From contig NZ_JAIWYX010000001.1 of NCBI RefSeq assembly GCF_020251205.1, forward strand, positions 620,001 through 684,000: a stretch of 64,000 nt of DNA, in the 5' to 3' direction. The stretch comes from Arthrobacter sp. M4 (GTDB lineage Bacteria > Actinomycetota > Actinomycetes > Actinomycetales > Micrococcaceae). Below, in pieces: positions 37,440 to 52,874 of this stretch (position 1 is the first letter of the stretch; the number at the start of each line of letters is the position of its first letter). The notes beneath the pieces are model-generated. The model did not search any database. It worked only from the letters and a program-made list of their open reading frames with translations, and was not told the origin of the DNA. The position numbers were made by a program, and so were the translations under genes.

Positions 37440-38371
37440 CAGATGGCTCCTCGGGTGTTGACATACAGGGAGTACAAGGATCGGCTGGCGGCCATGAACA
37501 GCCGGTTTTTCCGTGGTCCGCCGAAGGTGAGGTTGGCGCACCGCTCGGGCAACACAATCTGGCCTATCAGCTGGCCGTCAGGGTTGAAGATCCGCACGCC
37601 GTCAAGTTCGTCGGTTCCCATGCCCCAACCGCACCACAGGTTTCCGTCCTCGTCGCAGCGGAAACCGTCCGGGACGCCGTCGCCGGCGTCGATCAGCACG
37701 CGGGGCCCGTCCAGCGTCTGTCCGTCGGCCGCTATGTCAAAAGCCACAATGTTGCGGCGCGGGATGGCCCGGCTTTGGACTACGTACAGCCTGGATTCGT
37801 CCGGCGAGAAGGCGAGTCCGTTGGGCGACCGGACCTCGCTGGATGCCACCGTGAGTTCCCCCTCCGGGCTGATCCGGTAGATGTTGGTGGGCAGCTCGGG
37901 CTCGGCGCGGTAGCCTTCATAGTCGCTCAGCAGCCCAAAGGCCGGATCGGTAAACCATATGCTGCCATCGGATTTCACTACGACGTCGTTGGGCGAATTC
38001 AGTGGTTTGCCGTCGTAACTGTCTGCCAAGACCGTGATCGTTCCGTCGTATTCCGTGCGGGTGACACGGCGGGTGCCGTGTTCGCAGCTGACGAGACGCC
38101 CTTGGCGGTCGCGGGTGTTGCCGTTGGTGAAGTCTGACGGGCGTCGGAATTCGGACGTCTCCCCCGTCGTCTCGTCCCACTTCATGATGCGGTTGTTGGG
38201 CAGGTCACTGAATAGCAGATAGCGGCCGTCCCCGAACCAGACTGGCCCCTCGGTCCACCGGAACCCGGTGGCGAGCCTCTCCACCCCTGCCAAAACTATC
38301 CGGTATTTCTCGAAGGACGGGTCATGGACCACAATGGCCGGATCCGGATAGCGCGTACTTTCAAACCACAT
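37439..38371 (-). CDS. SMP-30/gluconolactonase family lactonase
   Basis: A 310-residue six-bladed beta-propeller. Metal-site motifs: ATGFRWTEGPVWFGDG (Glu), DRQGRLVSCEHGTRRV, LNSPNDVVVKSDGSIWFTDP (Asn/Asp) and EVRSPNGLAFSPDESRLYV. It would open a sugar lactone to the acid that enters the pathway. ATG 38371 is one base after the stop of the HpcH gene (TGACATG). No signal peptide, so it acts in the cytoplasm. Confidence 0.9.
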   Translation of the reverse strand: MWFESTRYPDPAIVVHDPSFEKYRIVLAGVERLATGFRWTEGPVWFGDGRYLLFSDLPNNRIMKWDETTGETSEFRRPSDFTNGNTRDRQGRLVSCEHGTRRVTRTEYDGTITVLADSYDGKPLNSPNDVVVKSDGSIWFTDPAFGLLSDYEGYRAEPELPTNIYRISPEGELTVASSEVRSPNGLAFSPDESRLYVVQSRAIPRRNIVAFDIAADGQTLDGPRVLIDAGDGVPDGFRCDEDGNLWCGWGMGTDELDGVRIFNPDGQLIGQIVLPERCANLTFGGPRKNRLFMAASRSLYSLYVNTRGAI

Positions 38372-38372
38372 G

Positions 38373-39158
38373 TCAGAGGGCCACCTTGTCCTGGGCGACA
38401 ACTCCAAGACGGCCAATCAGGCCTGCTGCGCCGCTGTTGACGATGGACGTGTCTGTCGCGACACCGAGCATGTCAACTCCCTGACCCATTCGGAAACGGG
38501 CTTCGTCCTCGTTCAGCGTCAGGTAACCGGAGGGCTTGCCGAGGGCGCGCAGGCGGTCAAATGCGTCATTGATGGCGGCCTGCACCTCCGGGTGTTGGGC
38601 GTTGCCGACGTGTCCCATTGATGCCGCGAGGTCTGCCGGACCAATGAAGACACCATCCACTCCCGGTACGGATGCGATCGCCTCGAGATTGCTCAGGCCG
38701 AGCGGCGTTTCGATTTGCACGATGATGCAGATTTCAGCCTCGGCAGTTGTCACGTAGCTGCGATTCTGCCCGTAGTTCGCGGCTCGGGAACTGGCGGAGA
38801 CGCCCCGGACGCCGAAGGGCGGGTAACGGGTGTAGCTAACCGCCGTATCCGCTTCCTCTGCCGTATCGATGCTGGGGATCAGCAGCGTCTGGGCACCGGC
38901 ATCAAGCAGTCGTTTTATCAGGATCATGTCCGACCAGGCCGGACGCACTACGGCGCTGACTCCATGGACGGCCAAGGCACGCAACTGTTCGATGACATCG
39001 GCCATTTCGGTCGGCGAGTGTTCGGTGTCCAGCAGGATCCAGTCGAATCCGGCGCCCGCCAGGAGTTCGACAAGGGAAGCGCTGTTCAGCGTTGAGAACA
39101 TTCCCAGTTGCTGGTCCTGTCCCAGCCGACGCTTGAAGGTGTTGATCGGTGTTTTCAA
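38373..39158 (-). CDS. HpcH/HpaI aldolase family protein
   Basis: A 261-residue class II (metal-dependent) pyruvate aldolase. Hallmarks: FDWILLDTEHSPTEMADVI, AGAQTLLIPSIDTAEEADTA, VQIETPLGLSNLEAIASVPG (metal Glu) and VFIGPADLAASMG (metal Asp). Such enzymes cleave 2-keto-3-deoxy acid sugars or 4-hydroxy-2-oxoheptanedioate to pyruvate plus an aldehyde. Next to OtnK/OtnC it implies either a second outlet or a substrate beyond simple tetronates. Confidence 0.9.
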   Translation of the reverse strand: MKTPINTFKRRLGQDQQLGMFSTLNSASLVELLAGAGFDWILLDTEHSPTEMADVIEQLRALAVHGVSAVVRPAWSDMILIKRLLDAGAQTLLIPSIDTAEEADTAVSYTRYPPFGVRGVSASSRAANYGQNRSYVTTAEAEICIIVQIETPLGLSNLEAIASVPGVDGVFIGPADLAASMGHVGNAQHPEVQAAINDAFDRLRALGKPSGYLTLNEDEARFRMGQGVDMLGVATDTSIVNSGAAGLIGRLGVVAQDKVAL

Positions 39159-39166
39159 TTGCTCTC

Positions 39167-39988
39167 CTATGCAGAAATTGGTCCAGCTTGGGCGCCGGAA
39201 AGGTGGGTGATTGCACGCGAGAGCTCCGCGGCAATGCTGAGTGCCCGGGGAAGGGCGGTGTCGATCAATTCGCTCATCGTCATGCGTGTGGCGTCCGTGG
39301 TGAGGCTGACTCCAGCGAGCGGACTCGCGTTTTCGTCAAGGATCGGCACTGCGACCGTTCGCAGTCCGTAGGCATTTTCACCGTCGGACACCGCATAGCC
39401 CTGGGCTTTGACCTGGCGAAGCCGCTCGAGGAGTTCAGGCAGCTCAATCAGCGTCCGGTCTGAGAATTTGATTCGCGGCTGGCTCTCCAGGATCTCGACC
39501 TGCCGGTCCTCGGGCAGCCAAGCCAGGACCGCGTGGCTGAGGGCGGCGGCGTGGTTGCTTGCTTTCCGGCCCGGCCGCGCGTCCACCCGGTGACGCACTA
39601 CCAAGGTGTCGTAGCGCTTCAGGTAGATGACGTCGTTTCCATCCAAGACGCCTAGCGACGCGGCATCAACGATGTCCGGAACGCAATCCTCCAGCAACGG
39701 TGCGCTGTTGTCCCAGAGCTCATGGGAGGCAAGCGCCGAGTAGCCCAGGTCCAGGCACTTCAGGGCCAATCGGAACCGTTTGCCGGGGACAGACCGCAGA
39801 TAGCCCAGGGACATCAGCGTGTGCAGCAACCGGAACGCCGTACCCCTGTCCAGTCCGGCAGCAGCGGCCACTTCGCTGACGCTCATCACTGGGTTCTCCG
39901 GTCCGAAGGCCTGCAGAACCGCGAAGGACTTGCCGACCGAGTTAACGACGTTCTTTGGGTTGTCCGACGGGGCGGGCTCTTTCACCAT
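39167..39988 (-). CDS. IclR family transcriptional regulator of the acid-sugar operon
   Basis: A 273-residue regulator. Winged helix VNSVGKSFAVLQAFG to GLDRGTAFRLLHTLMSLGYL, then the ligand domain ending VAVPILDENASPLAGVSLTT. It lies inside the operon, 8 bp before the aldolase gene and 27 bp after the SDR gene, so it is probably autoregulated by the pathway intermediate. Confidence 0.9.
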   Translation of the reverse strand: MVKEPAPSDNPKNVVNSVGKSFAVLQAFGPENPVMSVSEVAAAAGLDRGTAFRLLHTLMSLGYLRSVPGKRFRLALKCLDLGYSALASHELWDNSAPLLEDCVPDIVDAASLGVLDGNDVIYLKRYDTLVVRHRVDARPGRKASNHAAALSHAVLAWLPEDRQVEILESQPRIKFSDRTLIELPELLERLRQVKAQGYAVSDGENAYGLRTVAVPILDENASPLAGVSLTTDATRMTMSELIDTALPRALSIAAELSRAITHLSGAQAGPISA

Positions 39989-40015
39989 GATTTCTTCCTT
40001 GGGTTTGGTGGGCGG

Positions 40016-40768
40016 TCAGGAATCGAAGAGACGCAGCGAAGCAAAACCGCCGTCGACTGTTAGAACAGTGCCCACCGTCGATACGGCGGCCGGGTCGGCC
40101 ACATAGATGACGGCGCGGGCAACTTCCTCGGCAGAAACCATGAATCCGGTGGGCTGGCGATTGTTGTACACCTCCTGCTGGGCAGCGGGGTCCGGCGCCT
40201 GCCGTATCAGTTCCGCGATGAGTGGCGTGTCCACCGTCCCGGGGCTCACGCAGTTCACACGGATGCCTTCGTGTAGGAAGTCGGCGGCCATCGCGCGGCT
40301 CATGGCCTCGATGGCACCTTTCGTGGCTGAGTAGAGGACCCGGCGCCGGAGCCCTGTCGTCGCGGTGCACGATGAAACGTTCGTGATGCTGGCACCCCGG
40401 CGCCGGCGCAGGTATGGCAGGGCTGCCCGCGTGGCCCGCACATAGCCCAGGACGTTCACATCGAAGACACTGTGCCAGTCCTCCAGGGGCCCGTCTTCGA
40501 CCGTCGCAGGGTAGCTGACACCGGCGTTGTTGATCAGGATGTTGATGTGCCCATGCTTTTGGCCGATGCTGTCGAAGGCGGCGCGTACCTGGTCATCGCT
40601 GCCCATGTCAGTCTGGTACAGGTCAGCGCCGGCAGGACTTCCGGCGGTGTTCTTGTCCAGGATGGATACTTTGGCGCCGGCGGCGAGCAGGGCGCTGGCT
40701 ACTGCCTTGCCGATGCCTGCCGCGCCGCCGGTAACTACTGCGATGGCGCCGTTGAGGTTGCCGTTCAC
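40016..40768 (-). CDS. Short-chain dehydrogenase/reductase
   Basis: A 250-residue classical SDR. NAD(P) motif VVTGGAAGIGKAVA, NNAG in ILINNAGVSYPA, catalytic Ser in ITNVSSCT and YxxxK in LYSATKGAIEAM, closing TVLTVDGGFASL. In the acid-sugar operon it is the best candidate for the 3-dehydrogenase that makes the oxo-acid phosphorylated by OtnK, a step done by LtnD-type beta-hydroxyacid dehydrogenases in described pathways. Confidence 0.9.
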   Translation of the reverse strand: MNGNLNGAIAVVTGGAAGIGKAVASALLAAGAKVSILDKNTAGSPAGADLYQTDMGSDDQVRAAFDSIGQKHGHINILINNAGVSYPATVEDGPLEDWHSVFDVNVLGYVRATRAALPYLRRRRGASITNVSSCTATTGLRRRVLYSATKGAIEAMSRAMAADFLHEGIRVNCVSPGTVDTPLIAELIRQAPDPAAQQEVYNNRQPTGFMVSAEEVARAVIYVADPAAVSTVGTVLTVDGGFASLRLFDS

Positions 40769-40786
40769 GAAAGGATGCTCCGGGTT

Positions 40787-42127
40787 TCAGTCGATGGGGG
40801 TCATGGTTTTGATCGGGCGCAACGCGTAGGCACACCCTGCCGAGATAACAGCGATGATGATCATGTAAGCCATGACGGCATTGCTCGTACCGTACTGGGC
40901 CAGCAGTGTTGCCGCGATCAGGGGCGAGAGTCCGCCGCCGAGGATTGGTCCGAGCTGTTGGACGAGTGACAGGCCGCTGTAGCGGACGCGTGCCGGGAAC
41001 AGTTCGGAGAAGAACGCACCCTGCGCGCCGTAGACGGAGCCGTGTCCCACGGCTAGGCCCAGCGCGATGGCGGCGTAGATCAGGACGTGGTTCCCGCTGC
41101 TGAGCATGGCAAAGAATGGGAGCGCCAGCACAGCCTGGAAGAGCAAGCCACCGATGTAAACCTTGCGCCGTCCGATCCTGTCGGAAAGGGCGCCGAACAG
41201 GGGCAGGGTGATGCATTCGAGAACCGCACCAATCAATACGCCGTTAAGGATCTCCTGCTGGGGCAGCTTCAGGGTGCTTACACAGAATGTGATGGCGAAG
41301 ACAGCGTAGATGTTGAACAGACCGCTTTCGGCCACCTTGGAGCCAATGCCGAGGAGGATGCTTCGCCAGTGGTCACGAAGTGCCTCGATTACCGGGAGCT
41401 TGGCCGTGTCGCCAGCTTCCTTGACGGCGGCGAACGCCGGAGACTCCGTAATCCGGTAGCGGATGAAGAAGCCGATCGCGACGAGGATGATGCTGGCGAT
41501 GAACGGGATGCGCCATCCCCAAGCCAAGAAGTCTGCTTTGGGCAGGGCGGAGAGGGCACCCAGGAAGATGACCGGCAGCACCAGGCCGGCGGGGACGCCG
41601 ATGTGCACGAGCGAACTGTAGAAACCGCGCTTGTTGGCCGGGGCGTGTTCGATGGTCATGGTCATGCCGCCGCCGTACTCGCCGCCGATGCCGATGCCTT
41701 GGACGAGCCGGAGGATAACGAGCGCGATGGGGGCCAGGATGCCAATCGTGTCATAGGACGGCACGAGGCCGATGATGAAAGTGCCCGCGCCCATGATGAT
41801 CATGGTGAGCAGCAGGATCTTCTTGCGGCCAATCCGGTCGCCGTAGTGACCAAAGATAATGCCGCCGATGGGTCGGGCGCAGTAGCCGACGAAGAACGTC
41901 ACGAATGCCAGCAGGGTACCGACAAGGGCGTTCCCCGAGGGGAAGAACACGACGTTGAACACCAGCGAGGACGCGACTGCGTACAGACTGAAGTCGTAGT
42001 ACTCAATCGCGTTGCCGATGGCGCTGGCGAATGCCACGCGGCGCATCTGGGTCCGGCTCTCAAGGGTGCCGGCTTCGGTAAGGGCCAAGCTGTCCAGCTC
42101 GGCGGTAGAGGTTGGCTTCTTTGCCAT
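40787..42127 (-). CDS. MFS transporter, metabolite:H+ symporter (MHS) family
   Basis: A 446-residue carrier with 12 helices. MHS signatures: RRVAFASAIGNAIEYYDFSLY, IIFGHYGDRIGRKKILL after helix 2, and EYGGGMTMTIEHAPANKRGF. ATG 42127 has GGAG 6 bases upstream. It is the promoter-proximal gene of the acid-sugar operon and should import the acid (or its lactone) with protons. A TCCGA-N8-TCGGA inverted repeat at 42193-42210 lies upstream. Confidence 0.9.
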   Translation of the reverse strand: MAKKPTSTAELDSLALTEAGTLESRTQMRRVAFASAIGNAIEYYDFSLYAVASSLVFNVVFFPSGNALVGTLLAFVTFFVGYCARPIGGIIFGHYGDRIGRKKILLLTMIIMGAGTFIIGLVPSYDTIGILAPIALVILRLVQGIGIGGEYGGGMTMTIEHAPANKRGFYSSLVHIGVPAGLVLPVIFLGALSALPKADFLAWGWRIPFIASIILVAIGFFIRYRITESPAFAAVKEAGDTAKLPVIEALRDHWRSILLGIGSKVAESGLFNIYAVFAITFCVSTLKLPQQEILNGVLIGAVLECITLPLFGALSDRIGRRKVYIGGLLFQAVLALPFFAMLSSGNHVLIYAAIALGLAVGHGSVYGAQGAFFSELFPARVRYSGLSLVQQLGPILGGGLSPLIAATLLAQYGTSNAVMAYMIIIAVISAGCAYALRPIKTMTPID

Positions 42128-42192
42128 AGGAGTCTCCAGCGATAACGGGAAATTGATGTCGTATGAGGAATGATTCATCTCACCGTTCGGAG

Positions 42193-42210
42193 TCCGATCG
42201 AAAGTTCGGA
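42193..42210. promoter_or_regulatory. Inverted repeat TCCGA-N8-TCGGA, possible operator
   Basis: Arms 42193-42197 and 42206-42210, about 66 bp before the MHS start. Short arms, so weak evidence; IclR in the operon is the obvious candidate binder. Confidence 0.25.
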
Positions 42211-42336
42211 TGTTCCTCAGTGTAGGTGCGGCCTGTGGCCTCGTCAACCGAGTCCCCATCCGCTGGCCGATGCCGCACTGTCACGAGAAAGAACCTCAGC
42301 CGCACCACCAGCCAGCGACATTCCAAAGGAGAAAAC

Positions 42337-42689: not shown

Positions 42690-42824
42690 GTGCCCGCTCG
42701 TCCGCCGTCGACGTCGCAGCAGGCGACCAGCTCAACCTCGGGGGATGCTCTGGAGTGCCCCCGTGTGGTTGATCGCGATCTTTCCGCATCCGATGATGCC
42801 CACACGGAGATTTCCGTGCGGCAT
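42690..42824 (-). pseudogene. N-terminal fragment of a Gfo/Idh/MocA oxidoreductase
   Basis: Starts with a good ribosome site (AGGAGAACTGAC-ATG) one base after the aroQ stop and encodes MPHGNLRVGIIGCGKIAINH, TGALQSIP. A +1 base in a C5 tract (42740-42744) then shifts the frame; in the next frame it continues EVELVACCDVDGGRAGTF before similarity ends. So the operon once had one more gene, now truncated. Confidence 0.65.
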
Positions 42825-42825
42825 G

Positions 42826-43302
42826 TCAGTTCTCCTGTGCAGCCCTGGTTACTGCCTTGGAGCGCTGGGCGTGCCGGTCAGCGATGATGTCTATGCCAAA
42901 GGCGTAACCACTCACCCCCGCGCCGGCGATGACAGCGGCGGCCACGGGCGAGACGAAGGAGTGATGGCGGAAGCTTTCGCGGGTGTGGGGGTTGCTGATG
43001 TGGACTTCGACGACGTCCAACTCCGAAGCCTTAATGGCGTCGTGCAATGCGACGGAGGTATGGGTCAGGCCGGCCGGGTTGATAACACAGCCAACATTCT
43101 CGGTGCGGCCACGGTGCAGCGCGTCGATGAGGTCACCCTCGTGGTTGCTTTGCAGGAAGTCCACTTCCAGCCCGTGGGTGGCGGCACGGTCGCGGACCAT
43201 GCGTTCCACGTCGGCGATCGAGTCACTACCGTATATTTCCGGTTCGCGGGTGCCGAGCATGTTCAGGTTGGGTCCGTTAAGGACCAGGACACGATTGGTC
43301 AT
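42826..43302 (-). CDS. aroQ: Type II 3-dehydroquinate dehydratase
   Basis: A 158-residue dodecamer-forming enzyme. VLVLNGPNLNMLGTREPEIY carries the catalytic Tyr and the R/E lid; INPAGLTHTSVALHDAI and VEVHISNPHTRESFRHHSFV are the other active-site blocks. It dehydrates 3-dehydroquinate to 3-dehydroshikimate. ATG 43302 gives the standard N-terminus, though an upstream ATG at 43347 overlaps the previous stop (ATGA) and could add 15 residues. In this operon it is likely catabolic. Confidence 0.92.
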   Translation of the reverse strand: MTNRVLVLNGPNLNMLGTREPEIYGSDSIADVERMVRDRAATHGLEVDFLQSNHEGDLIDALHRGRTENVGCVINPAGLTHTSVALHDAIKASELDVVEVHISNPHTRESFRHHSFVSPVAAAVIAGAGVSGYAFGIDIIADRHAQRSKAVTRAAQEN

Positions 43303-43343
43303 GGGGCTGCTTTCTTGCTCGAGGTCTAAAAGGGTTTGGTGTT

Positions 43344-44245
43344 TCATGAAGGTTCCAGGGCGTGTGCGACGAGCGTGCGGGCGGCGGAGATGCTGCTGCG
43401 GGCCGCGGCGGTGGAATCGAGCGCACGGAATTCCGGATAGTTGACTTCTACGCACCACGGCCCGGTGAAGCCTGCGGTGCGGACGGCACGGACGAAGCCT
43501 GCGCCGTCGAGGTCACCGTCGCCGGGCAACCGGCGGGTTGAGCGTGCATTGGCCAGGAAATCTTCGTGGACGCGGTATCCGCCGTTGAGCTGGACAGCCG
43601 TGATCGGCCCCATCTCCCCCTTGGCGATCCCGTCAGTGGTGCAGTCTGTGTTGAGGCGTGCCACGTGTCAGCCAGCGCTCCCCCGGTGCCCGCAATAGCC
43701 TGGATTTCGCGGACCAGGCCGTAGTCCCGGATCTTTGACCACGCGAAGGCCTCGACGGCGGGGGCGTAGCCGGTACCGGCCACTAACGCGGCTAGTTCGG
43801 CGAGTCCGCGGCCGGCAAGCTGCGGATCCGCAGCCGGTCCGGCGCCGAACTCCCCGACACTCACGTGATGTCCGCCGACAGAGTTGGTGGCCAGATGCCC
43901 TTCCACTTCACCGACAAGTTCGGCGGCTTTGGCGACGGCGGGGTTGCCGGGTCCGTCGCACCAACCCCCCATGAACTCGATTTCGACGACGTCCAGCCCG
44001 GTTCCGCGCAGAACTCCGGACATGTGGGCCAGCACCTCCGAGGGGTCGTCCGTGCCGAGCTCATTCCAGTCCGGGTCGGTGAGTTCGTTCAGGTGCAGGC
44101 CGATGCCGGCGTAGCCGGTATCGGCTGCTGCCTGAACCCGGTCGGTGAACGTATGCCGGGGCGGTTGCCCGAAGCCGCTGCCGGACAGGGTGAAGAAGCT
44201 CGCTACGAAGCAGTCGGCGTGGGGTACCTTCTGGCGCGTTGTCAC
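43344..44245 (-). pseudogene. TIM-barrel sugar-phosphate-isomerase-like gene (probable 3-dehydroshikimate dehydratase), frameshifted
   Basis: Residues 1-193 (from GTG 44245) are in one frame: TGYAGIGLHLNELTDPDWNE, VEIEFMGGWCDGPGNPAV, YAPAVEAFAWSKIRDYG, ending GGALADTWH. The remainder continues in another frame from base 43664: VARLNTDCTTDGI, VQLNGGYRVHEDF, WCVEVNYPEFRAL. The metal ligands expected of xylose-isomerase-like barrels (E in EAF, D/H in DTWH, E in EVN) are split between the parts. The site has a single GTGGCAC at 43658-43664; a duplicated GTGGCAC would restore ...DTWHVAR... in one frame. Context suggests conversion of dehydroshikimate to protocatechuate (AsbF-like). Confidence 0.7.
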
Positions 44246-44248
44246 TGC

Positions 44249-45274
44249 TCAGCCGACCTGCGCGGCCGTGGGCAAGTAGGGCGGAGTGGCGTATTCCTTG
44301 AAGCTGGGCGGGGTGGCCAGACCCCAGGCTGTGCTGCGCCCGCCGGTTTCGGTGTCCCAGGTGACCGGTTCCCAGTCCGGGGAGTAGATGTGGATGCCTC
44401 CGGAAAACACCTCGATCCGGTTGCCGCCGGGTTCGATGACGTAGAGGAAGAACCCCTGGGTGCGGGAGTGCTTGGCGGGGCCGAAATCGATCGGCACCCC
44501 GTTCTCCATGAAGATGTCGGCTGCCTTGAGCACGTCTTCGCGGCTTTCGACGGCGTAGGCCAGGTGGTGCAGCCGGCCTGACGTGGGGTAAGGCTCCCGG
44601 GTCAGGGCAAGGTCGTGTGCCTTGGTCATGACCGAGAGCCAGGCCCCGACTTCCTGCTCTGTACCGGCCGGGACCAGACGCTCCCGTAATTTGAAGCCGA
44701 GGGCTTCCTGCGCGAAGGCGCTGGCCTGGCCGACGTCCGGCACCAGCAGGTTGATGTGGTCCAGGTGGGCAGCTCCCACGCCGCGGGGATCGTATTTTTG
44801 GGGTTGGTTGGGCAAGTAAGGCTTCTGTCCCGCAGGGGCGAGGAACTTTTCCGTTTCGAAGTAGATCTCCTGAAGGTGCCCGCCGGGGCCGCGGTACTGG
44901 TAGGCGGCACCGTGCCCGACGTCCCCGTCAATCCACTGGCCCTGGATGCCCTTGACCTCCAGGGCGGCGACCCTGCGGCGCAGCGCCTGAGGGCTGGTGC
45001 AGCGCCACGCCACGTGTCCGGGCCCGGGCTGCGCCGCGGCGGTCACCTTCAGCGACGTGAGCACATCGTCGTTCCACGCCCGCAGGTAGACGGAGTCAGC
45101 CGTCTCCTCCACGGTGTAGAGCCCGTAGACCCTGGTGAAGAAATCCGCCGTGGCTTGGAGGTCCGGGCTGAGGATTTCCACGTGCCCCAGTTGGGCGACG
45201 TCGTAGACCGGTTCTTTGTATGTGTCCTCTCCGGGGTCAGTGAGCCGTTCGGCGTGGTGCGAGATGTCAACCAT
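44249..45274 (-). CDS. Type I extradiol ring-cleavage dioxygenase (VOC family)
   Basis: A 341-residue two-domain Fe(II) enzyme. The N-domain starts at QLGHVEILSPDL; the catalytic C-domain has iron ligands His173 in HLDHINLLV, His237 in RLHHLAYAV and Glu288 in GGNRIEVFSGG. It resembles catechol 2,3-dioxygenases. In this operon protocatechuate 2,3-cleavage is the best fit, with catechol or a carboxycatechol analogue as alternatives. AAAGGAGCACC precedes ATG 45274. Confidence 0.87.
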   Translation of the reverse strand: MVDISHHAERLTDPGEDTYKEPVYDVAQLGHVEILSPDLQATADFFTRVYGLYTVEETADSVYLRAWNDDVLTSLKVTAAAQPGPGHVAWRCTSPQALRRRVAALEVKGIQGQWIDGDVGHGAAYQYRGPGGHLQEIYFETEKFLAPAGQKPYLPNQPQKYDPRGVGAAHLDHINLLVPDVGQASAFAQEALGFKLRERLVPAGTEQEVGAWLSVMTKAHDLALTREPYPTSGRLHHLAYAVESREDVLKAADIFMENGVPIDFGPAKHSRTQGFFLYVIEPGGNRIEVFSGGIHIYSPDWEPVTWDTETGGRSTAWGLATPPSFKEYATPPYLPTAAQVG

Positions 45275-45344
45275 GGTGCTCCTTTGCACGCGGCCGGCCC
45301 GGCGGGGCCGCCCGGTATTCCTGTGGATGGGTCAGCTGCAGGTG

Positions 45345-45773
45345 TCAGCGTGGCGCGGCAGTTGCGCCCAGACCGGCCTCGTTTTTCTGCTCAAGCTCCG
45401 CGATTCCGTCCAGGATCGCCGGGGCATGGTTGGCCACGGACAGCCCGCCAAAAAGGTAGGCGAGATCGATGGTGGCCTGCAGTTCGTCCCAGCTGGCGCC
45501 GGCCCGACGGGCGGCCAGGCCATGGAGCTTGGCCGCGTCGCGCAGGTTGACGGCCAGGACCGCGAAGAGGATCAGCTGGACTGTTTTTTGGTCGAGCTTG
45601 TCCGTGTAGCAGATCAGGTTCCGGACCCGCTCCTCGGCGAGCAGCAGCTCGGGGTTGGTGTCCCGGAGCCGGTCGAAACGGGCCTGGATGCGCGGGGGCA
45701 CGAAGCCCATCAGTTCGCGGTAGGTGTCCAGGAATTCATCGATCTGCCAGTTCTGGGCTTCGGTAGCGGTCAT
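45345..45773 (-). CDS. Carboxymuconolactone decarboxylase (PcaC-like) family protein
   Basis: A 142-residue helical protein. The core LILFAVLAVNLRDAAKLHGL followed by YLFGGLSVANHA lacks the CxxC of AhpD peroxidases and instead follows the PcaC pattern with a histidine near the motif. In the operon it could remove the carboxyl group from the ring-cleavage product of protocatechuate (5-carboxy-2-hydroxymuconate semialdehyde). That assignment is inference from context. Confidence 0.8.
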   Translation of the reverse strand: MTATEAQNWQIDEFLDTYRELMGFVPPRIQARFDRLRDTNPELLLAEERVRNLICYTDKLDQKTVQLILFAVLAVNLRDAAKLHGLAARRAGASWDELQATIDLAYLFGGLSVANHAPAILDGIAELEQKNEAGLGATAAPR

Positions 45774-45826
45774 GGCCGTCTCCCTCTTTTCCGTCGTGTG
45801 TGTCTGGGTCGTGCCGTGGCGCGGGT

Positions 45827-46642
45827 TCAGGCGCCGGTGACCGTCAGTGTTCCCAGGTTGGTGAACTCTGCGGTGACCTGTTCACCCGGGCGGACAAAGA
45901 CGGCGTCGGTCAGTCCTCCGGTTAGCACGATGGCTCCGGCTTCGATGCTTTCTCCGCGTTCCGCGAGGGCGTTGGCCGCCAGGGCCAGGGCTTCGCCGGG
46001 GTGCCCTTGGACGGCGGCCCCGGTGGCGGTGGCCACCACCGTGCCGTTGACGGACAGGACCACGGCTTCGAGGGCGAGGTCAAGGCCGGAGGGCTGGGTG
46101 CCGTCTGCTCCGATGAAGAGCCGTGAGGATGAGGCGTTGTCCGCCACCACGTCCGGGAGCGTGAATTTGAAGTCGGTGTAGCGGCTGTCGATGACCTCAA
46201 AGCCGGCGTGGACGCTTTGGACGGCGGCCATGGCAGTTGCGGCCGTCACCCCGGGTCCGGCGAGGCGTTCCTTCATCACGAAAACGATTTCCGGTTCGAT
46301 CTTTGGGTGGATCAGTTCGTCCATCGGGATGGGAACGCCGGCTTGCAGGACCATCTTGTCGGTGATCACGGCGGTGAGGGGCGAATCGATGCCCATCTGC
46401 TGTTGCTTCGCCCTGGCTGTCAGGCCGAGCTTGACGCCGATGACGCGCTCTCCTCCCGCTACCTTGAGGTCGATCAGCTTACGCTGGACGCGGTACGCGG
46501 CGTCGAGATCAAGCTCAGGGTATTCGTCGGTGATCTTTCCGCCGTCGGTCCGGTCCAGTTCGCGCTTGTACAGCACGTCCGCGACGCGCTCTTCGGTCCA
46601 GGCGCTGCCCTGGGCGGACGGTGAGGTGGGTTCGTTGCTCAT
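45827..46642 (-). CDS. 4-oxalocrotonate (2-oxo-3-hexenedioate) decarboxylase
   Basis: A 271-residue FAH-superfamily enzyme. GGKITDEYPELDLDAAYRVQ, GVKLGLTARAKQQQMGIDSP, ELIHPKIEPEIVFVM and VIDSRYTDFKFTLPDVVADN follow XylI closely. It decarboxylates 2-oxo-3-hexenedioate to 2-oxopent-4-enoate, working in complex with the vinylpyruvate hydratase encoded at 48698-49489. The start overlaps the aldolase stop by four bases. Confidence 0.85.
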   Translation of the reverse strand: MSNEPTSPSAQGSAWTEERVADVLYKRELDRTDGGKITDEYPELDLDAAYRVQRKLIDLKVAGGERVIGVKLGLTARAKQQQMGIDSPLTAVITDKMVLQAGVPIPMDELIHPKIEPEIVFVMKERLAGPGVTAATAMAAVQSVHAGFEVIDSRYTDFKFTLPDVVADNASSSRLFIGADGTQPSGLDLALEAVVLSVNGTVVATATGAAVQGHPGEALALAANALAERGESIEAGAIVLTGGLTDAVFVRPGEQVTAEFTNLGTLTVTGA

Positions 46643-47724
46643 GCGGGGACTCTTTCGTTGTGTTCGGCTGCCTGGCGCTGCAGACCCGCCAGTTCGATGG
46701 CGACGTCGATGATCATGTCCTCCTGCCCGCCGACGTAGCCGGCTTCGCCGACTCGGCGGAGGATCTGGTAGGCCGGAACGCCATAACGGTCTGCTGCCCG
46801 TTCCGCGTGCAGCAGGAAGGAGTTGTACACACCGTAGCGCCCCTGGACGATCGAGGAGCGGTCCATCACCGGCATGCGTGTCACGATCGGGGCCAAGACT
46901 TCTTCGGCGGCGGCGAGGGCCGCTTCGACATCAACGCCGGTGGCGATGCCCATGGCGTCCAGGACGGTGACCAGAACTTCGGTTGGGGTGTTGCCGGCAC
47001 CGGCACCGAGCGCACGGAGCGTTCCGTCGATGCTGCGCGCCCCGGCACGGTAGGCTTCCACCGAGTTCGCTACACCCATGGACAGGTTCTGGTGTCCGTG
47101 GAAGCCCACCATGGCGTCGTCGCCCAGTTCCTGGACCAGCGCATCGACCCTGTTCCGGACGCCGTGGGGAAGCAGTGCCCCCGCGGAGTCCACAACATAC
47201 ACACACTGGCAGCCGGCGTCGGCCATGATCCGGGCCTGCTTGGCCAGCTGGGCGGGCTCCGTGCGGTGGGACAGCATGAGGAACCCGGCTGTTTCCATGC
47301 CCAGGTCCCGGGCAGCCCGGAAATGCTGGACGCTGACGTCGGCCTCCGTCGAGTGGGTGGCGACACGTGCCATGCCTGCCCCGGCGGCGCGGGCTTCATG
47401 GAGATCGTTTACGGTACCGAGTCCGGGAAGCAGCAGGACGGCGATTTTGGCGTTGGTGACGGCTTCGGCAGCTGCGGCGACCAGGTCGATGTCCCGGACA
47501 GCGGAGAAGCCGTAATTGAAGGAGGACCCGGCGAGCCCGTCACCGTGGGTGACTTCGATGATGGGTACGCCGGCCTTGTCCAGTGCCTTTGAGATGTCGG
47601 TGACCTGTTGGACGGTGAAGTTGTGGCTGACGGCGTGGCTGCCGTCGCGCAGGGTGGTGTCGATGATGCGCACGGGCGGGTTCGCGGCGGTGTTGGCCAC
47701 GCCGGCTGGTTCAGTGGAGGTCAC
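46639..47724 (-). CDS. 4-hydroxy-2-oxovalerate aldolase
   Basis: A 361-residue DRE-TIM enzyme. [19 protein letters not shown] holds the catalytic Asp and metal site, [16 protein letters not shown] the HxH metal ligands, and [16 protein letters not shown] the C-terminal barrel strand. It splits 4-hydroxy-2-oxovalerate into pyruvate and acetaldehyde, channelling the aldehyde to the next enzyme. GTG 47724 overlaps the dehydrogenase stop (GTGA), as usual for this pair. Confidence 0.93.
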
Positions 47725-48668
47725 TTGGTTGTCACCTGTTCTTTTTCGTTCGTGGCGGCCCAGGCAAGGGCCAACTGTTCGCCCGCGCGGGCGGCGGCGG
47801 CGGTCATGATGTCGAGGTTGCCTGCCCATGGCGGGAGATAGTCGCCGTTGCCGGTGACTTCGAGGAAGACGGCAACCCGTCCGTTGCCGTCCCAGTCCGG
47901 GCGCGGGTCATCGAACTGGGGCTCGGATTTGAGCTGGTAGCCGGGGACGTACTGCTGGACTTCGGCGACCATCCGGTGGATGGATTCGGTGATGGCTTCG
48001 CGGTCCGCGTCAGGTCCGATGGCGGCAAAGACGGTGTCACGCATAACCATCGGCGGCTCCACGGGGTTCAGGATGATGATGGCCTTGCCCCTTGTGGCGC
48101 CGCCCACCGATTGGAGGGCGTGTGAAGTGGTTTCGGTGAATTCGTCGATGTTCGCCCGGGTTCCGGGTCCGGCGGAGCGGGAGGAGATGGAGGCGACGAT
48201 TTCGGCGTATGGCACCGGGGTGACCCTGGAGACGGCAGCAACGATCGGAATGGTGGCCTGGCCGCCGCAGGTGATCATGTTGATGTTCGACGTGGTACCG
48301 CCGCCAGCATCCAGGTGCTCATCGAGGTTTACTGCCGGGCATACGAAGGGGCCAACGGCGGCGGGCGTGAGGTCGACGGCGGCTATGCCGGCTTCGCGGT
48401 ACCGCGGGGCGTTCGCTTCGTGGGCCTTGGCGCTGGTCGCTTCGAAGACGACGTCGGGCAGGATGTCCTGGTCAAGGAGCCAGTCGACTCCCCCGGCGCT
48501 GGCTTCGACGCCGAGCTCGCGTGCCCTGCGCAGCCCGTCCGACGCGGGATCGACGCCGATCATGTAGCGGACGTCGAGGGTGCCGCTGCGCTGGAGCTTG
48601 ATGAGCAAGTCGGTGCCGATGTTTCCCGGGCCGACGATGGCCGCGATGGGACGTGGACGGTGGTCCAT
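47721..48668 (-). CDS. Acetaldehyde dehydrogenase (acetylating)
   Basis: A 315-residue enzyme making acetyl-CoA from acetaldehyde with NAD+ and Co[18 protein letters not shown] is the NAD motif; the catalytic Cys is in [36 protein letters not shown] follows. It pairs physically with the aldolase. First gene after the vinylpyruvate hydratase, 29 bp away. Confidence 0.93.
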
Positions 48669-48697
48669 GAGGTTACTCCTGTGGCTTGTTGGAGGTA

Positions 48698-49489
48698 TCA
48701 GTTGGCGAAGTTCGCAGTGACGGTGCCCAGACCGCCGGCGAAAGTGGCCGAGATCGTGTCTCCGGGCGCCGCCGCGACGGCGCCTGTCATGGAGCCGGGA
48801 AGAACAACGGAGCCAGCCTCGAGGGTAACGCCCAGAGGGCCCAGGGTGTTTGCGAGCCAGGCGAGTGCGTTCAGCGGTGAGCCGAGCACCGCACCGCCGG
48901 CGCCGGTGGCAACGAGCTCACCATTCCGGAACAGGTTCACCCCCGTGGTCCGCAGGTCCATGTCTGCAGGTTTCACGGGCCGTGAACCGAGGACGACCCC
49001 GCCGGATGAAGCGTTGTCGGCGATGGTGTCCGCGAGCTTGATCTTCCAGTCCGTGATTCTGGAATCGATGATTTCCAGTGCCCCCACGACGTAGTCGATC
49101 GCGCTGAGTGCTTCGGTGGCGGTGACGCCCGGGCCGGTCAGGGACTTTCCGAGGACGAACGCGAACTCTGGTTCGACCTTGGGGTTGATGAAACGGCCTG
49201 CCCGGATGGGATCCGTGTCCGCGAAGAACATGTCGTCCATCAGGTGCCCGAAATCGGGCTGGTCCACGCCAAGCTGCACCTGCATGGCCCGGGAGGTGAG
49301 GCCGACTTTATGGCCCTTGACGGTACGGCCTTCGACCTTCCAGGCCTGAACCTGTGCCAACTGGATACCGTAGGCACCTTCAACCCCCAGGTCGGGAGCG
49401 GTGTCGGTGAGGGGGGCAACGGTCTGACGGGTGCGGTAGGCCTCAAGGAGTGCCTGTGCGGCGTCGTTGTCGCGGGTGCTGGTGGTCAT
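48698..49489 (-). CDS. 2-oxopent-4-enoate (vinylpyruvate) hydratase
   Basis: A 263-residue FAH-superfamily hydratase. [38 protein letters not shown] and [20 protein letters not shown] match MhpD/BphH/XylJ. It hydrates the dienol to 4-hydroxy-2-oxovalerate. ACGGAGAAGGC precedes ATG 49489. It is the first gene of the meta-cleavage operon and divergent from an IclR gene. Confidence 0.9.
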
Positions 49490-49582
49490 GCCTTCTCCGT
49501 CAGTCGTGGTGCTGCGGCCTGGTCGGCCGGTGAATGGAACGAACACTTGGAATACTGCCGGTTGCTGCCCCATACTCCAACC

Positions 49583-50356
49583 ATGTGTCCCACTGAACGA
49601 AACGTCCCCGAGTCCATGATCGGAAGAGTCTCGCTGGTCCTGGGTGCCTTCGGCCCCGACGACGAAGACCTGGGAATCTCCGAGATCGCCCGCCGGACGG
49701 GCCTGGCGAAAGCGACGGTTTCGCGGATCGCACGGGAGCTTATCGAGTATGAGTTTCTTGAGCGTCGCGGCACGTCGGTCCGGCTGGGGCTGCGGATCTT
49801 CGAACTCGGATCTGTCACCCGCAGGCCAAAGGACCTCCGCCGTTTGGCCCTGGCGACGATGGCTGACCTGCGTCAGGCGACCGGCCATACCGTGCACCTG
49901 GCTGTCCGCGAAGGCCGGGAGGTGGTCTACATCGAGATCCTCAGGGGCCGCGATGGCGTCCAGCTGCCGTCGCGGGTCGGCGGGCGTATGCCCGCGCACG
50001 CCACCGGAGTCGGCAAAGCCCTTTTGGCCCATGCGGATTCCGCGGCCGTGGAGGAGATCCTTGGTGGTCAGCTGGAGCAGATGGGCCCGCGCACGTTCAC
50101 CTCCCCCAAGGACCTGCGGGTGGAATTGGAATCGGTGCGCACACATGGCGTCGCCTACGAACAGGAGGAGTCAGCTGCGGGCGTCTGCTGCGCGGCCAGC
50201 GCCATACTGCGCGAAAACGGTGAACCACTGGCGGCCATCAGCGTCTCCGGGCCGCTCGGCGTCGTTCAGCTGGAAAGGGTGGGGCCCGCCGTCCAGGCGG
50301 CCACGATGGGCTTGAACCGCCTAATCCGGAACAACTCGCTCCTGAACAGAATCTGA
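49583..50356 (+). CDS. IclR family regulator of the aromatic pathway
   Basis: A 257-residue regulator. HTH ISEIARRTGLAKATVSRIAR, ligand domain with HLAVREGREVVYIEILRG, MPAHATGVGKALLAH and CCAASAILRENGEPLAAISV. It is divergent from the operon starting at 49489 with 93 bp between, the usual layout of a pathway-specific regulator. The gap has TGGAAC/TTGGAA-like elements but no clean palindrome. Confidence 0.9.
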   Translation: MCPTERNVPESMIGRVSLVLGAFGPDDEDLGISEIARRTGLAKATVSRIARELIEYEFLERRGTSVRLGLRIFELGSVTRRPKDLRRLALATMADLRQATGHTVHLAVREGREVVYIEILRGRDGVQLPSRVGGRMPAHATGVGKALLAHADSAAVEEILGGQLEQMGPRTFTSPKDLRVELESVRTHGVAYEQEESAAGVCCAASAILRENGEPLAAISVSGPLGVVQLERVGPAVQAATMGLNRLIRNNSLLNRI

Positions 50357-50391
50357 AGGCACGGACCCCTCGTAGCCGACGACGCAGCGCA

Positions 50392-50425
50392 GCCCGGCCC
50401 CGAAACCGGAGCTTCGGGGTCGGGC
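50392..50425. terminator. Bidirectional terminator hairpin
   Basis: GCCCGGCCCCGAA (50392-50404) pairs with TTCGGGGTCGGGC (50413-50425), one G:U pair, 8-base loop. It lies between the convergent IclR and MHS transporter genes. Confidence 0.75.
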
Positions 50426-50444
50426 CGCAGCAGTTCAATGTCTG

Positions 50445-51848
50445 TCAGACCGAGGCCTTGATCCGGTCTGCCCGGGTGGCCTTCAGGTCCACCCGGCGGG
50501 GGTTCTTCTTACCCAGCTCCTCCAGCGGGATGTTGTAGGTTTCCCGGCTGAACAGGACGGCTACAGCGCTGATTGAACATGCGACGGCGACGAAGATCGC
50601 GATCGGCAGCCACCCCATCTCGCCCTTGAGCACGATAGCGGCAGCGATGGAAGGTGCGAAGCCGGTGAGGACCACGCCCAGCTGGGTAGAGACCGCCACG
50701 CCCGAGTAGCGCACCCTGGCCGCGAACTGTTCCGGGTAGAAGGACGGCCAGATGGCGTTGTAGCAGCTGTAGAAGAGGGACGTGATGGTGAACTGGCCCA
50801 GGAAGATCAGCCAGCCGTTGCCGGATGTCAGTGTGGTCAGCCAGAAAAAGGAACTGAGCGTGCAGCCGACCGCGGCCGTGATCAGAACCGGCTTGCGGCC
50901 GATCCGGTCTGACAGCATCGCCGCGAGAGGCTGGACGATCAAGGCGCCGAGGTTTGCCCCGATGACTACCCACAGCATGGTGCTCGAGGAGACCACGTTG
51001 GCGTGCCCGTATTCGGGTTTGGAGGCGTAGGCCACACCGAAGGTTGCGGTAACAGAGCTGACCACGCCAAGGCTGGTGCAGCCAATCACGCGAATGATAT
51101 CTCGCCACTGATCACGGAACAGTGCCTTGATAGGCATCTTCTCGACCTTGTGGTCTTCTTCGAGATCGGTGAAGATCGGCGCGTCATCCAGCGTGCGGCG
51201 GACGATGAAAGCAATGACCACCAGAACGGCGCTGAGCAGGAACGGTACCCGCCAGCCCCATGTGTACAGTTGCTCCGGCGGGAGCGCGGCAAAGGGCAGG
51301 AACACGAGGTTGGCCAGGATCAGGCCGGCCTGCGTGCCGTTGAGGGTCCAGCTGGCGAAGAACGCGCGCCGGCCCATCGGTGCATGCTCGATCGTCAGCG
51401 AGCTGGCACCGCTTTGCTCGCCCGCCGCGGACAGGCCCTGGCACAGACGCAGGAAAACCAGCAGCGCTGGAGCCCAAAGGCCGATGGAGTTGTAATCAGG
51501 CAGGACCCCGATCAGGAACGTGGAGATGCCCATCAGCAGCAGGCAGAACACCATGACCTTCTGACGGCCCAGTTTGTCCCCGTAGTGGCCGAGGAAGAAC
51601 GCGCCGACAGGACGGGCCACGTACGCGACGCCGAACGTTGCCAGCGCGAGCAATGTACCGGTGGCCGGATCGGCGTCTGTGAAAAAGACCTTGTTCAGTA
51701 CCAGCGTCGCCATAACGCCGTAGATGAAGAAGTCGTAGTACTCCACCATAGAGCCCAGGAAGGAAGCGAGGGCGGCCTTGACAGGGGTAGGGGCGTGGCC
51801 GGGCAAGGGTGTCGGGCCTTTTACCGAGATGGACATTTTGGAGCTCAT
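50445..51848 (-). CDS. MHS-family MFS transporter (shikimate/aromatic acid type)
   Basis: A 467-residue, 12-helix carrier. VKAALASFLGSMVEYYDFFIY, AFFLGHYGDKLGRQKVMVF and EQSGASSLTIEHAPMGRRAF are MHS hallmarks shared with ShiA. It overlaps the aroE stop by four bases, so import and dehydrogenation of quinate/shikimate are coupled. Confidence 0.9.
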   Translation of the reverse strand: MSSKMSISVKGPTPLPGHAPTPVKAALASFLGSMVEYYDFFIYGVMATLVLNKVFFTDADPATGTLLALATFGVAYVARPVGAFFLGHYGDKLGRQKVMVFCLLLMGISTFLIGVLPDYNSIGLWAPALLVFLRLCQGLSAAGEQSGASSLTIEHAPMGRRAFFASWTLNGTQAGLILANLVFLPFAALPPEQLYTWGWRVPFLLSAVLVVIAFIVRRTLDDAPIFTDLEEDHKVEKMPIKALFRDQWRDIIRVIGCTSLGVVSSVTATFGVAYASKPEYGHANVVSSSTMLWVVIGANLGALIVQPLAAMLSDRIGRKPVLITAAVGCTLSSFFWLTTLTSGNGWLIFLGQFTITSLFYSCYNAIWPSFYPEQFAARVRYSGVAVSTQLGVVLTGFAPSIAAAIVLKGEMGWLPIAIFVAVACSISAVAVLFSRETYNIPLEELGKKNPRRVDLKATRADRIKASV

Positions 51849-52816
51849 TTCTCGTGTTCGGAACTGCGTTGTTCAGCGTCAATAAGGGAAAGGAAAATGC
51901 GGCGCATGCGCTGCGGGTCCGGCTCGAGGCCGGTGAAAAGCCTGAATGCTTCGGCGCCCTGGTGGACACACATACGCCCGCCGTCCAACGTCCTGCATCC
52001 GATGGAGTCCGCTCGTCGCAGCAGTTCGGTGCGCAGCGGCCGGTATACGACATCGCTCACCCACTGGCCGCTGTTGAGCAGGCCAACATCAAAGGAGGTT
52101 CCGGGGTGGGCGGCCATGCCTATGGGCGTGGCATTGACGACGCCGTCAGCAGAACGGATGGCTTGCCGCAGCTGGCCACCGTCCGCCACGCGGACCACGT
52201 CCCGGTCCGCAGTTGCGTTAAGCGTGACCGCCAGGAGGTGGGCCCGCTCCGGGAACAGATCACTGATTGTCAGGCGCTCCACACCGGAGCGGACAAGCGC
52301 CAGGGCCACGGCCGCACCGGCGCCGCCGACGCCGACCTGCACCACATGCTCGCGCGGAGCGTCCCCCAAGCCTTCTGCCAGGCCCCTCTGGAATCCCAGA
52401 TGATCCGTATTGTGGCCGGTCATCCGGCCGTCGCCGTCCAAAACCACGGTGTTAACCGAGCGCAGGATCCGGGCATCATCGGAAACCTCATCCAGTAACC
52501 CGAGGACGGTCTGCTTGTACGGATGCGTGATGTTCAGCCCGTTGTAGCCCAAGAGCTGGGCGTAGTGGAGCAAGCTCTTCAAATCCGCGGCTCCCAGTCC
52601 CAGGCTGGGAAGGTCGATCGGGCGGTAGACCAGGCGTATCCCATGAAACTCAGCCTCCCGCTCATGCATCGGCGGGCTCAGCGAAGGCAGGACTCCGTCA
52701 CCGATGAGCCCAACCAGATAGGCCGGCCGGCACAGGTCCGCTACCGACTGGCCTTCCCAGGCGGCTGGCTCCTCCGCCAGATTTTCGCGGATCAGCCCCT
52801 CAGACCGCAATGTCAA
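51845..52816 (-). CDS. aroE: Shikimate/quinate dehydrogenase
   Basis: About 323 residues. Substrate domain: YLVGLIGDGVLPSLSPPMHE and YNGLNITHPYKQTVLGLLD (catalytic Lys); NAD(P) domain: VVQVGVGGAGAAVALALVR; close GGRMCVHQGAEAFRLFTG. No ATG or good ribosome site is available: TTG 52816 or TTG 52810 are the candidates. A 24-codon ORF with a strong ribosome site ends inside this start region, so translation is probably by re-initiation. With MHS and AroQ it forms a catabolic branch. Confidence 0.87.
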   Translation of the reverse strand: MTLRSEGLIRENLAEEPAAWEGQSVADLCRPAYLVGLIGDGVLPSLSPPMHEREAEFHGIRLVYRPIDLPSLGLGAADLKSLLHYAQLLGYNGLNITHPYKQTVLGLLDEVSDDARILRSVNTVVLDGDGRMTGHNTDHLGFQRGLAEGLGDAPREHVVQVGVGGAGAAVALALVRSGVERLTISDLFPERAHLLAVTLNATADRDVVRVADGGQLRQAIRSADGVVNATPIGMAAHPGTSFDVGLLNSGQWVSDVVYRPLRTELLRRADSIGCRTLDGGRMCVHQGAEAFRLFTGLEPDPQRMRRIFLSLIDAEQRSSEHEK

Positions 52817-52874
52817 CCCAGATTTCGCGGGGTCCGGTTTTGATCAGCGTCCGCTGCGGGTTCCTTATTCGCAT
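52800..52874 (-). CDS. 24-residue leader ORF overlapping aroE start
   Basis: ATG 52874 has AAGGAGTCGCAACG directly upstream, the best ribosome site in this operon. The peptide MRIRNPQRTLIKTGPREIWV-DIAV ends at 52800-52802, inside the aroE start region but in another frame. A coupling peptide or a regulatory leader is likely; a frameshift that split a longer AroE N-terminus is the alternative. Confidence 0.5.
   Translation of the reverse strand: MRIRNPQRTLIKTGPREIWVDIAV

Follow-up and report, generated by a model that had tools for sequence, protein, structure and literature searches.

A shikimate-linked meta-cleavage gene cluster with an adjoining CMD-family protein and extradiol dioxygenase in Arthrobacter sp. 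M4

Described systems and the cluster of Arthrobacter sp. M4

Quinate and shikimate utilisation is known together with pca ortho cleavage, from the qsu genes of Corynebacterium and the qui genes of Pseudomonas, in which an AroE-type dehydrogenase, AroQ, a dehydratase and a carrier lead to protocatechuate. A stretch of 64,000 nucleotides from Arthrobacter sp. M4 (contig positions 620001-684000; source genome 5.07 Mb, 96 contigs), here called the window, was analysed for a ten-gene cluster in which the same branch is joined to meta-cleavage genes. The cluster is real, conserved and coherent. It is read here, with somewhat better than even confidence, as a second shikimate-fed aromatic route leading from shikimate through protocatechuate and catechol to meta-cleavage. 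Among open-access titles and abstract openings no paper on a shikimate-fed meta-cleavage cluster in Arthrobacter was found, which is no proof of absence, since subscription papers were mostly outside that literature.

Among the closest known systems is the aromatic cluster on plasmid pTHEOS01 of Thermus oshimai JL-2, where a CMD-family gene (156-563) is directly followed by a catechol 2,3-dioxygenase gene (564-1535). A divergent operon across the record start is annotated with an IclR regulator, an acylating acetaldehyde dehydrogenase (AcDH), DmpG, a 4-oxalocrotonate tautomerase (4-OT), a hydratase, an aldehyde dehydrogenase and an FAA protein. A further gene about 4 kb from the pair is annotated with sugar-isomerase and 4-hydroxyphenylpyruvate domains (the QuiC/QsuB layout); its product was 28% identical over 245 aa to the single-domain 3-dehydroshikimate dehydratase (DSD) of a Mycolicibacterium relative of the cluster (L044). 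Shared with the window are the CMD gene preceding and adjoining a type I extradiol dioxygenase (EDO) gene of the catechol 2,3-dioxygenase-like kind, the DmpF, DmpG and hydratase genes and the IclR regulator, with identities of 46.7% over 122 aa for CMD (THEOS_RS10945), 43% for EDO, 54% for AcDH, 52% for DmpG and 35% over 220 aa for IclR. Only the Thermus cluster has a dehydrogenase and a 4-OT of its own, a two-domain dehydratase and other transporters, whereas the window has AroE, AroQ, an MHS carrier and a one-domain dehydratase, and neither dehydrogenase nor 4-OT. The same CMD-EDO pair was found in T. thermophilus AA2-29. According to PMC10815724, citing Chakraborty et al. 2021, protocatechuate is converted to catechol in T. 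oshimai JL-2 by 4-carboxymuconolactone decarboxylase.

The pra pathway of Paenibacillus sp. JJ-1b resembles the window in its 4-oxalocrotonate decarboxylase, hydratase, aldolase and acetaldehyde dehydrogenase, the first two being best-model calls under cut-off here. The pra extradiol dioxygenase is likewise of type I. Its PraB dehydrogenase and PraC tautomerase have no counterpart in the window, and the praRABEGFDCHI set is not known to include shikimate genes. The pathway of OpaD leads from an aromatic acid to 2-hydroxymuconate semialdehyde and on through the same lower enzymes; it differs in its substrate, in its decarboxylase, a 327-aa protein outside the CMD family, and in having 2-hydroxymuconate semialdehyde dehydrogenase, tautomerase and hydrolase genes in the cluster. 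In PMC6362003, PraH of Paenibacillus was aligned with OpaD (327 aa) and NbaD, and not with CMD proteins.

The features of the cluster were assigned as follows (coordinates, strand, description).

51845-52816, minus: gene o, shikimate/quinate dehydrogenase of the AroE family; NF009201 over cut-off, PRK14027 quinate/shikimate dehydrogenase (NAD+) 332.8 bits, under cut-off
50445-51848, minus: gene n, MHS-family carrier, shikimate-transporter-like; TIGR00883 369.6 bits and PRK09952 281.1 bits, both under cut-off
about 49583-50356, plus: IclR-family regulator, divergent from the m-f unit; PF01614 137 bits, PF09339 46.6 bits
49546-49580, no strand: candidate operator, an imperfect inverted repeat in the gap separating the IclR gene from gene m; alignment of five Arthrobacter loci
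48698-49489, minus: gene m, 2-oxopent-4-enoate hydratase-like, DmpE type; best model TIGR03220 276.1 bits, under cut-off
47721-48668, minus: gene l, AcDH, DmpF type; TIGR03215 440.1 bits, over cut-off
46639-47724, minus: gene k, 4-hydroxy-2-oxovalerate aldolase, DmpG type; TIGR03217 460.6 bits, over cut-off
45827-46642, minus: gene j, 4-oxalocrotonate decarboxylase-like, DmpH type; best model TIGR03218 265 bits, under cut-off
45345-45773, minus: gene i, small CMD-family protein, proposed protocatechuate decarboxylase; PF02627 36.3 bits
44249-45289, minus: gene h, type I (VOC-fold) EDO, for catechol or protocatechuate; TIGR03211 304.5 bits, cut-off 320.2
43344-44245, minus: gene g, single-domain DSD, frameshifted here; two frames, by comparison with intact relatives
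42826-43302, minus: gene f, type II 3-dehydroquinate dehydratase AroQ; TIGR01088, NF003806 and PF01220 over cut-off
42744-42809, minus: Gfo/Idh/MocA dehydrogenase gene remnant; tblastn, 22 residues, 86% identity, E 7e-6

Only AroQ, AroE, aldolase and AcDH take their names from curated models scoring over cut-off; the names of the DmpE and DmpH types, the EDO and the carrier are best-model calls with scores under cut-off. The window holds the AroE-type dehydrogenase, AroQ and carrier of a quinate/shikimate branch, and the genes named in the initial annotation were all present on the minus strand with family support, apart from the TIM-barrel ORF (gene g), which as it stands is frameshifted and has no family match. 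The true starts of AroQ (43302), aldolase (47724) and hydratase (49489) probably lie inside their ORFs. The IclR gene divides the locus into an aroE-carrier unit, whose two genes overlap by 4 bases, and an eight-gene unit m-l-k-j-i-h-g-f with intergenic gaps of -4 to 55 bases (145 before aroQ if g is drawn in its broken frame). The inverted repeat has arms of about nine bases, mostly conserved in the five Arthrobacter loci with single arm differences, and may be an operator.

From these genes, their synteny and their co-occurrence the following route is proposed. Shikimate or quinate would enter through the MHS carrier and be oxidised by AroE, the quinate branch being dehydrated by AroQ to 3-dehydroshikimate, which the TIM-barrel DSD, judged by families and synteny, would turn into protocatechuate. 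The CMD-family protein would convert protocatechuate to catechol, as its Thermus homologue suggests, and the type I EDO would cut catechol at the 2,3 position to 2-hydroxymuconate semialdehyde. The semialdehyde would be oxidised by a dehydrogenase encoded elsewhere, most likely HpaE, and tautomerisation would be spontaneous or due to another enzyme, after which the DmpH-like decarboxylase, DmpE-like hydratase, DmpG aldolase and DmpF dehydrogenase would yield pyruvate and acetyl-CoA. An intermediate of the pathway is the probable signal for the divergent IclR regulator.

Conservation of the cluster and its CMD-EDO pair

Relatives were collected by scanning one genome per species (84,980 species), which required exact short peptide matches, so that distant members were missed, and gave 10 loci. 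A plasmid collection added the Embleya locus (L084); L096 and loci further removed came from scans of the genus and the phylum. Loci found again in the genus scan (genomes of L039, L040 and L045) were counted once, and L097, from the same genome as L040, was dropped. The EDO clade was defined by an EDO identity of at least 65% and comprised 10 loci (the window, L039, L040, L045, L096 and L041 to L044, with L084) from Arthrobacter, Ruicaihuangia (L041), Mycetocola (L042), Leucobacter (L043), Mycolicibacterium (L044) and Embleya (L084). The nearest named relative at the cluster was Arthrobacter silvisoli (EDO 97% identity).

The CMD gene adjoins the EDO gene in nine of the ten clade loci (the exception is Mycetocola); L098 and the two Thermus loci read have the same adjacency. 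The DmpH-like gene j is present in all ten, AcDH and aldolase in eight. On the shikimate side, DSD stands by the EDO gene in 7/10 loci, counting the frameshifted window copy, and AroQ, carrier and AroE are each present in six (AroE in pieces in L040). In Mycolicibacterium the opposite strand carries aroE, carrier and aroQ as one unit, so the shikimate link holds there in a different layout. Because the arrangement was found again in other genera, it is more than chance. The initial annotation was right to link the shikimate branch with meta-cleavage in one locus; its word 'unusual' has to be softened, as the Thermus plasmid has its QuiC/QsuB-layout gene near a CMD-EDO pair. CMD and the clade EDO co-occur in the same 5 of 206 genomes of the genus, which makes the pair a sound unit to test.

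Gene i encodes 142 aa with one cysteine and no CXXC motif, and is therefore not cysteine-less as first described. It matched PF02627 weakly and no NCBIfam model, and does not belong to the PcaC subfamily. The CMD group has invariant positions (GFVPPR, K-T, Q-L, D-A-A, H and R-A-G-A), and the genome's own PcaC-like protein, named by reading, lacks GFVPPR and other invariants and lies outside the group on a very long branch; two rows of this alignment were extended by a few residues beyond the stop. Gene i is not of the PraH family, as judged by sequence, and no PraH-type (OpaD/NbaD-related) decarboxylase was matched among the ten cluster proteins with Pfam and NCBIfam. Its predicted structure was of low confidence (mean pLDDT 66.1), and of the best 10 Foldseek matches nine were titled CMD and the tenth TM1620, none with E <0.001; the structure therefore adds little. 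A plasmid search with gene i gave 9 records, from Embleya, Thermus (seven) and Hydrogenophaga (one). On the Hydrogenophaga plasmid pBPS33-1 (L133:3942-7318) the gene of a 101-aa CMD relative begins directly after that of an IS1071 transposase, with an alpha/beta hydrolase gene next in line; the 14 kb shown contain no annotated dioxygenase.

The DHIN, RLHH and NRIEV positions of the EDO align with the His-His-Glu metal ligands of homoprotocatechuate 2,3-dioxygenase, so that the two-His one-Glu site is present. Arg243 and Arg292/293 of that enzyme presumably bind the carboxylate. The position aligned to Arg243 was basic in none of 16 EDO rows and that of Arg292 in 16 of 17, and these positions were rejected as a residue signature for a carboxylate-binding EDO, as they fail to discriminate. 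In a tree of 52 EDO rows the window clade held 10 rows (99/99) and a separate clade 33 (98/95), with L098 and two CMD-linked Thermus rows in no firm position. Thirty loci of the 33-row clade were scanned (27 with 1.5-kb flanks only) and the other three read as annotation. No CMD gene was found in the 30 scanned loci, and in 16 of them a match to PIG-L or LigK marked a 4,5-cleavage setting. The nearest solved chain to the window EDO was 9wgj, titled catechol 1,2-dioxygenase (292.9 bits).

Proteins annotated or scoring as catechol 2,3-dioxygenase were also seen with PIG-L and LigK-type genes in L124, L135 and L099-L101, with an oxalomesaconate tautomerase and a tannase-family gene in L135 as well. 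These enzymes may be 4,5-dioxygenases of type I, acting on protocatechuate or gallate, to which the family model gives the wrong label.

On the minus strand in Mycetocola (L042:11001-13100) and Leucobacter (L043:10941-12100) the EDO gene is flanked by a gene for a class II aldolase-like protein and by a small ORF that reads as 4-OT-like, and in Mycetocola a second dioxygenase-like gene stands between the two. The Leucobacter class II protein matched PF00596 and is weakly like the 3,4-dihydroxyphthalate decarboxylase model. In Mycetocola the class II protein could replace CMD.

Absent steps, the frameshifted dehydratase and a second route in the genome

In genome-wide searches neither aldehyde dehydrogenase (PF00171) nor 4-OT (PF01361) gave a match inside the window, in agreement with the first description, by which the semialdehyde dehydrogenase and tautomerase lie outside it and must be borrowed or bypassed. 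A dehydrogenase is present in three of the ten clade loci (Mycetocola, Leucobacter and Embleya), none of which has DSD; those of Mycetocola and Leucobacter are 82% identical and that of Embleya is more distant (33%). The search of the genome that had been proposed found, as closest match to the Leucobacter enzyme, HpaE of the homoprotocatechuate operon (44% identity, over the HpaE cut-off). hpaE stands beside hpaD in all five carriers of the cluster in the genus, and the HpaE model was also the best, under cut-off, for the Thermus cluster dehydrogenase. The borrowed semialdehyde dehydrogenase may be HpaE. One PF01361 match lies elsewhere in the genome (C77:112020). Among the ten cluster genes no hydrolase was found that would bypass these steps from the semialdehyde to hydroxypentadienoate, a search that was confined to the cluster. 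According to PMC12455638, engineered pra pathway strains that grew had lost the tautomerase PraC and required PraD, so the absence of 4-OT need not block the route.

A second Ruicaihuangia locus (L122) has an aldehyde dehydrogenase by sequence match, and AcDH and aldolase by reading of its proteins. Also by reading, it has proteins resembling 3-hydroxyanthranilate dioxygenase and aminomuconate deaminase.

Gene g carries a one-base deletion within 43646-43669 relative to the intact genes of L039 and L045, which shifts its last third to another frame. As assembled, its ORF has no Pfam or NCBIfam match, and the branch in the window is without an intact 3-dehydroshikimate dehydratase in this assembly. 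Four conserved positions (E, D, Q, E), presumably equivalent to the metal ligands of QuiC1, fall on both sides of the frameshift. The frame is open in the six other DSD loci, with lengths of 300-310 aa in L039, L040 and L045 and 269-279 aa in L041 and L044, and a single match spanning residues 9-300 of the L039 protein in L096. The intact L039 protein matched PF01261 and partially QuiC NF042435 (41.3 bits, far under cut-off). With DSD broken here, the supply of protocatechuate would fall to the QuiC/QsuB-type enzyme encoded at the pca locus described below, or to other aromatic compounds, provided that the deletion is no sequencing error.

Just behind aroQ, remnants of a Gfo/Idh/MocA gene were found in the window and in L045 (12496-12900), where the copy is larger and also broken; the gene is intact in Ruicaihuangia (L041) and Mycolicibacterium (L044), with inositol 2-dehydrogenase as best model, under cut-off. 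The remnants suggest an older upper-pathway enzyme that is being lost in Arthrobacter. With that best model and its decay in the window, the gene was rejected as a substitute for the absent semialdehyde dehydrogenase and more likely encodes a cyclitol dehydrogenase of the upper pathway. In L040 (A. alkaliphilus) aroE gave two short matches only (L040:3120-3433), and the shikimate branch may be breaking down in this species.

Elsewhere in the genome, C55:278785-283021 (L065) carries an AroE-like gene (by reading), a 614-aa QuiC/QsuB-type dehydratase and two adjacent PF00775 matches, the pcaHG-like genes for which a search had been suggested. The genome therefore seems also to have the usual shikimate-to-ortho route, in the arrangement of the qsu and qui systems and separate from the window. 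With a QsuB-type dehydratase and pcaHG-like genes present there, the window cluster would be a second route.

Next to the cluster, a unit at 37439-42259 comprises an SMP-30 lactonase, an HpcH/HpaI aldolase, an IclR regulator, an SDR protein and a second MHS carrier. The same gene set is found in L045 on the opposite strand, about 3.5 kb beyond aroQ. It looks like a separate sugar-acid-type pathway.

Alternative readings and what the cluster would mean

The initial annotation had proposed protocatechuate 2,3-cleavage of the pra kind. The lower-pathway genes agree with this, and the decarboxylase does not, being no relative of PraH; neither family models nor residues tell catechol and protocatechuate apart as the EDO substrate. 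In such a pathway the EDO would form 5-carboxy-2-hydroxymuconate-6-semialdehyde, and the CMD protein would decarboxylate this product to 2-hydroxymuconate semialdehyde in place of the unrelated PraH. Inputs and outputs are the same and the gene content fits equally. PcaC, of the same broad family as the CMD protein, acts on a ring-cleavage product, and the wider EDO family has members in PIG-L, LigK and tannase clusters that probably act on carboxylated rings. The window EDO is also closer to the Thermus protein RS11050 of a PIG-L/LigK cluster (47%) than to the CMD-linked RS10950 (43%). Against this, among CMD relatives from organisms for which a function is reported the Thermus homologue is the nearest, and no carboxylate-binding signature marks the EDO clade at the two arginine positions. 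We regard true 2,3-cleavage as a tentative possibility, clearly behind the route through catechol, which is favoured at somewhat better than even confidence although the sequence alone cannot separate the two.

Several observations weigh against the route through catechol itself. The greater similarity to RS11050 weakens a simple transfer of the Thermus assignment, and the EDO tree places the window protein with neither Thermus enzyme. The assignment by Chakraborty and colleagues reportedly rests on gene deletion, and RS10945 is presumed to be the protein concerned from its family, place and cluster. TIGR03211 scores (RS10950 344 bits, RS11050 332, L044 331, L084 311, window 304.5, and 297 for an Agrobacterium protein near a tannase gene) do not separate genomic settings, so the 'catechol' label is no evidence. 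The Mycetocola stretch has EDO and dehydrogenase without a CMD gene, no CMD gene was found in the stretches of L010, L015 and L046-L048, outside the 33-row clade, and none of the seven DSD-bearing loci has a dehydrogenase in its stretch. HpaE was over cut-off in 198/206 genomes of the genus and, being near-universal, would be available and not co-selected. DSD is frameshifted in this assembly, and its dN/dS exceeded that of the other nine genes (0.43 and 0.35 in two parts vs 0.06-0.27, from few changes).

The last of these bear on a further reading, in which the cluster is decaying and no longer serves shikimate in this strain, with at most its lower part still working. The deletion in DSD, the Gfo/Idh remnant here with the larger broken copy in L045, and the aroE pieces of L040 would fit it. 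On the other side, the other nine cluster ORFs are open and six relatives have an intact DSD, and the part of gene g behind the deletion is almost unchanged relative to L039 (dN 0.009, dS 0.026), so the deletion is either very recent or an assembly error; we consider decay unlikely. It is more improbable still that the EDO acts on another ring, such as gallate or another carboxylated catechol, with DSD supplying one of several feeds. The three DSD-less clade loci (L042, L043 and L084) do have apparent ABC transporter genes instead, by reading, so that the core may be fed by other substrates there, and a 43%-identical EDO relative lies near a tannase gene, but the lower genes in the window are of the catechol/2-hydroxymuconate type and a PIG-L or LigK match was found in none of nine clade loci scanned.

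The cluster connects quinate and shikimate of plant origin with meta-cleavage in Actinobacteria, and the genome has an ortho route besides. A CMD-type protein that has received little study, and that stands beside a dioxygenase in Thermus, is now seen also in Arthrobacter, Ruicaihuangia, Leucobacter, Mycolicibacterium, Embleya and one more genome. Should the CMD protein act instead on 5-carboxy-2-hydroxymuconate-6-semialdehyde, Actinobacteria would have a protocatechuate 2,3-cleavage pathway supplied from shikimate and quinate in which an unrelated protein takes the place of PraH, and the Thermus assignment would need a second look. The pair bears on whether the substrate of such CMD proteins is the aromatic acid itself or the ring once opened, a point of importance for directing lignin-derived protocatechuate to catechol or pyruvate.

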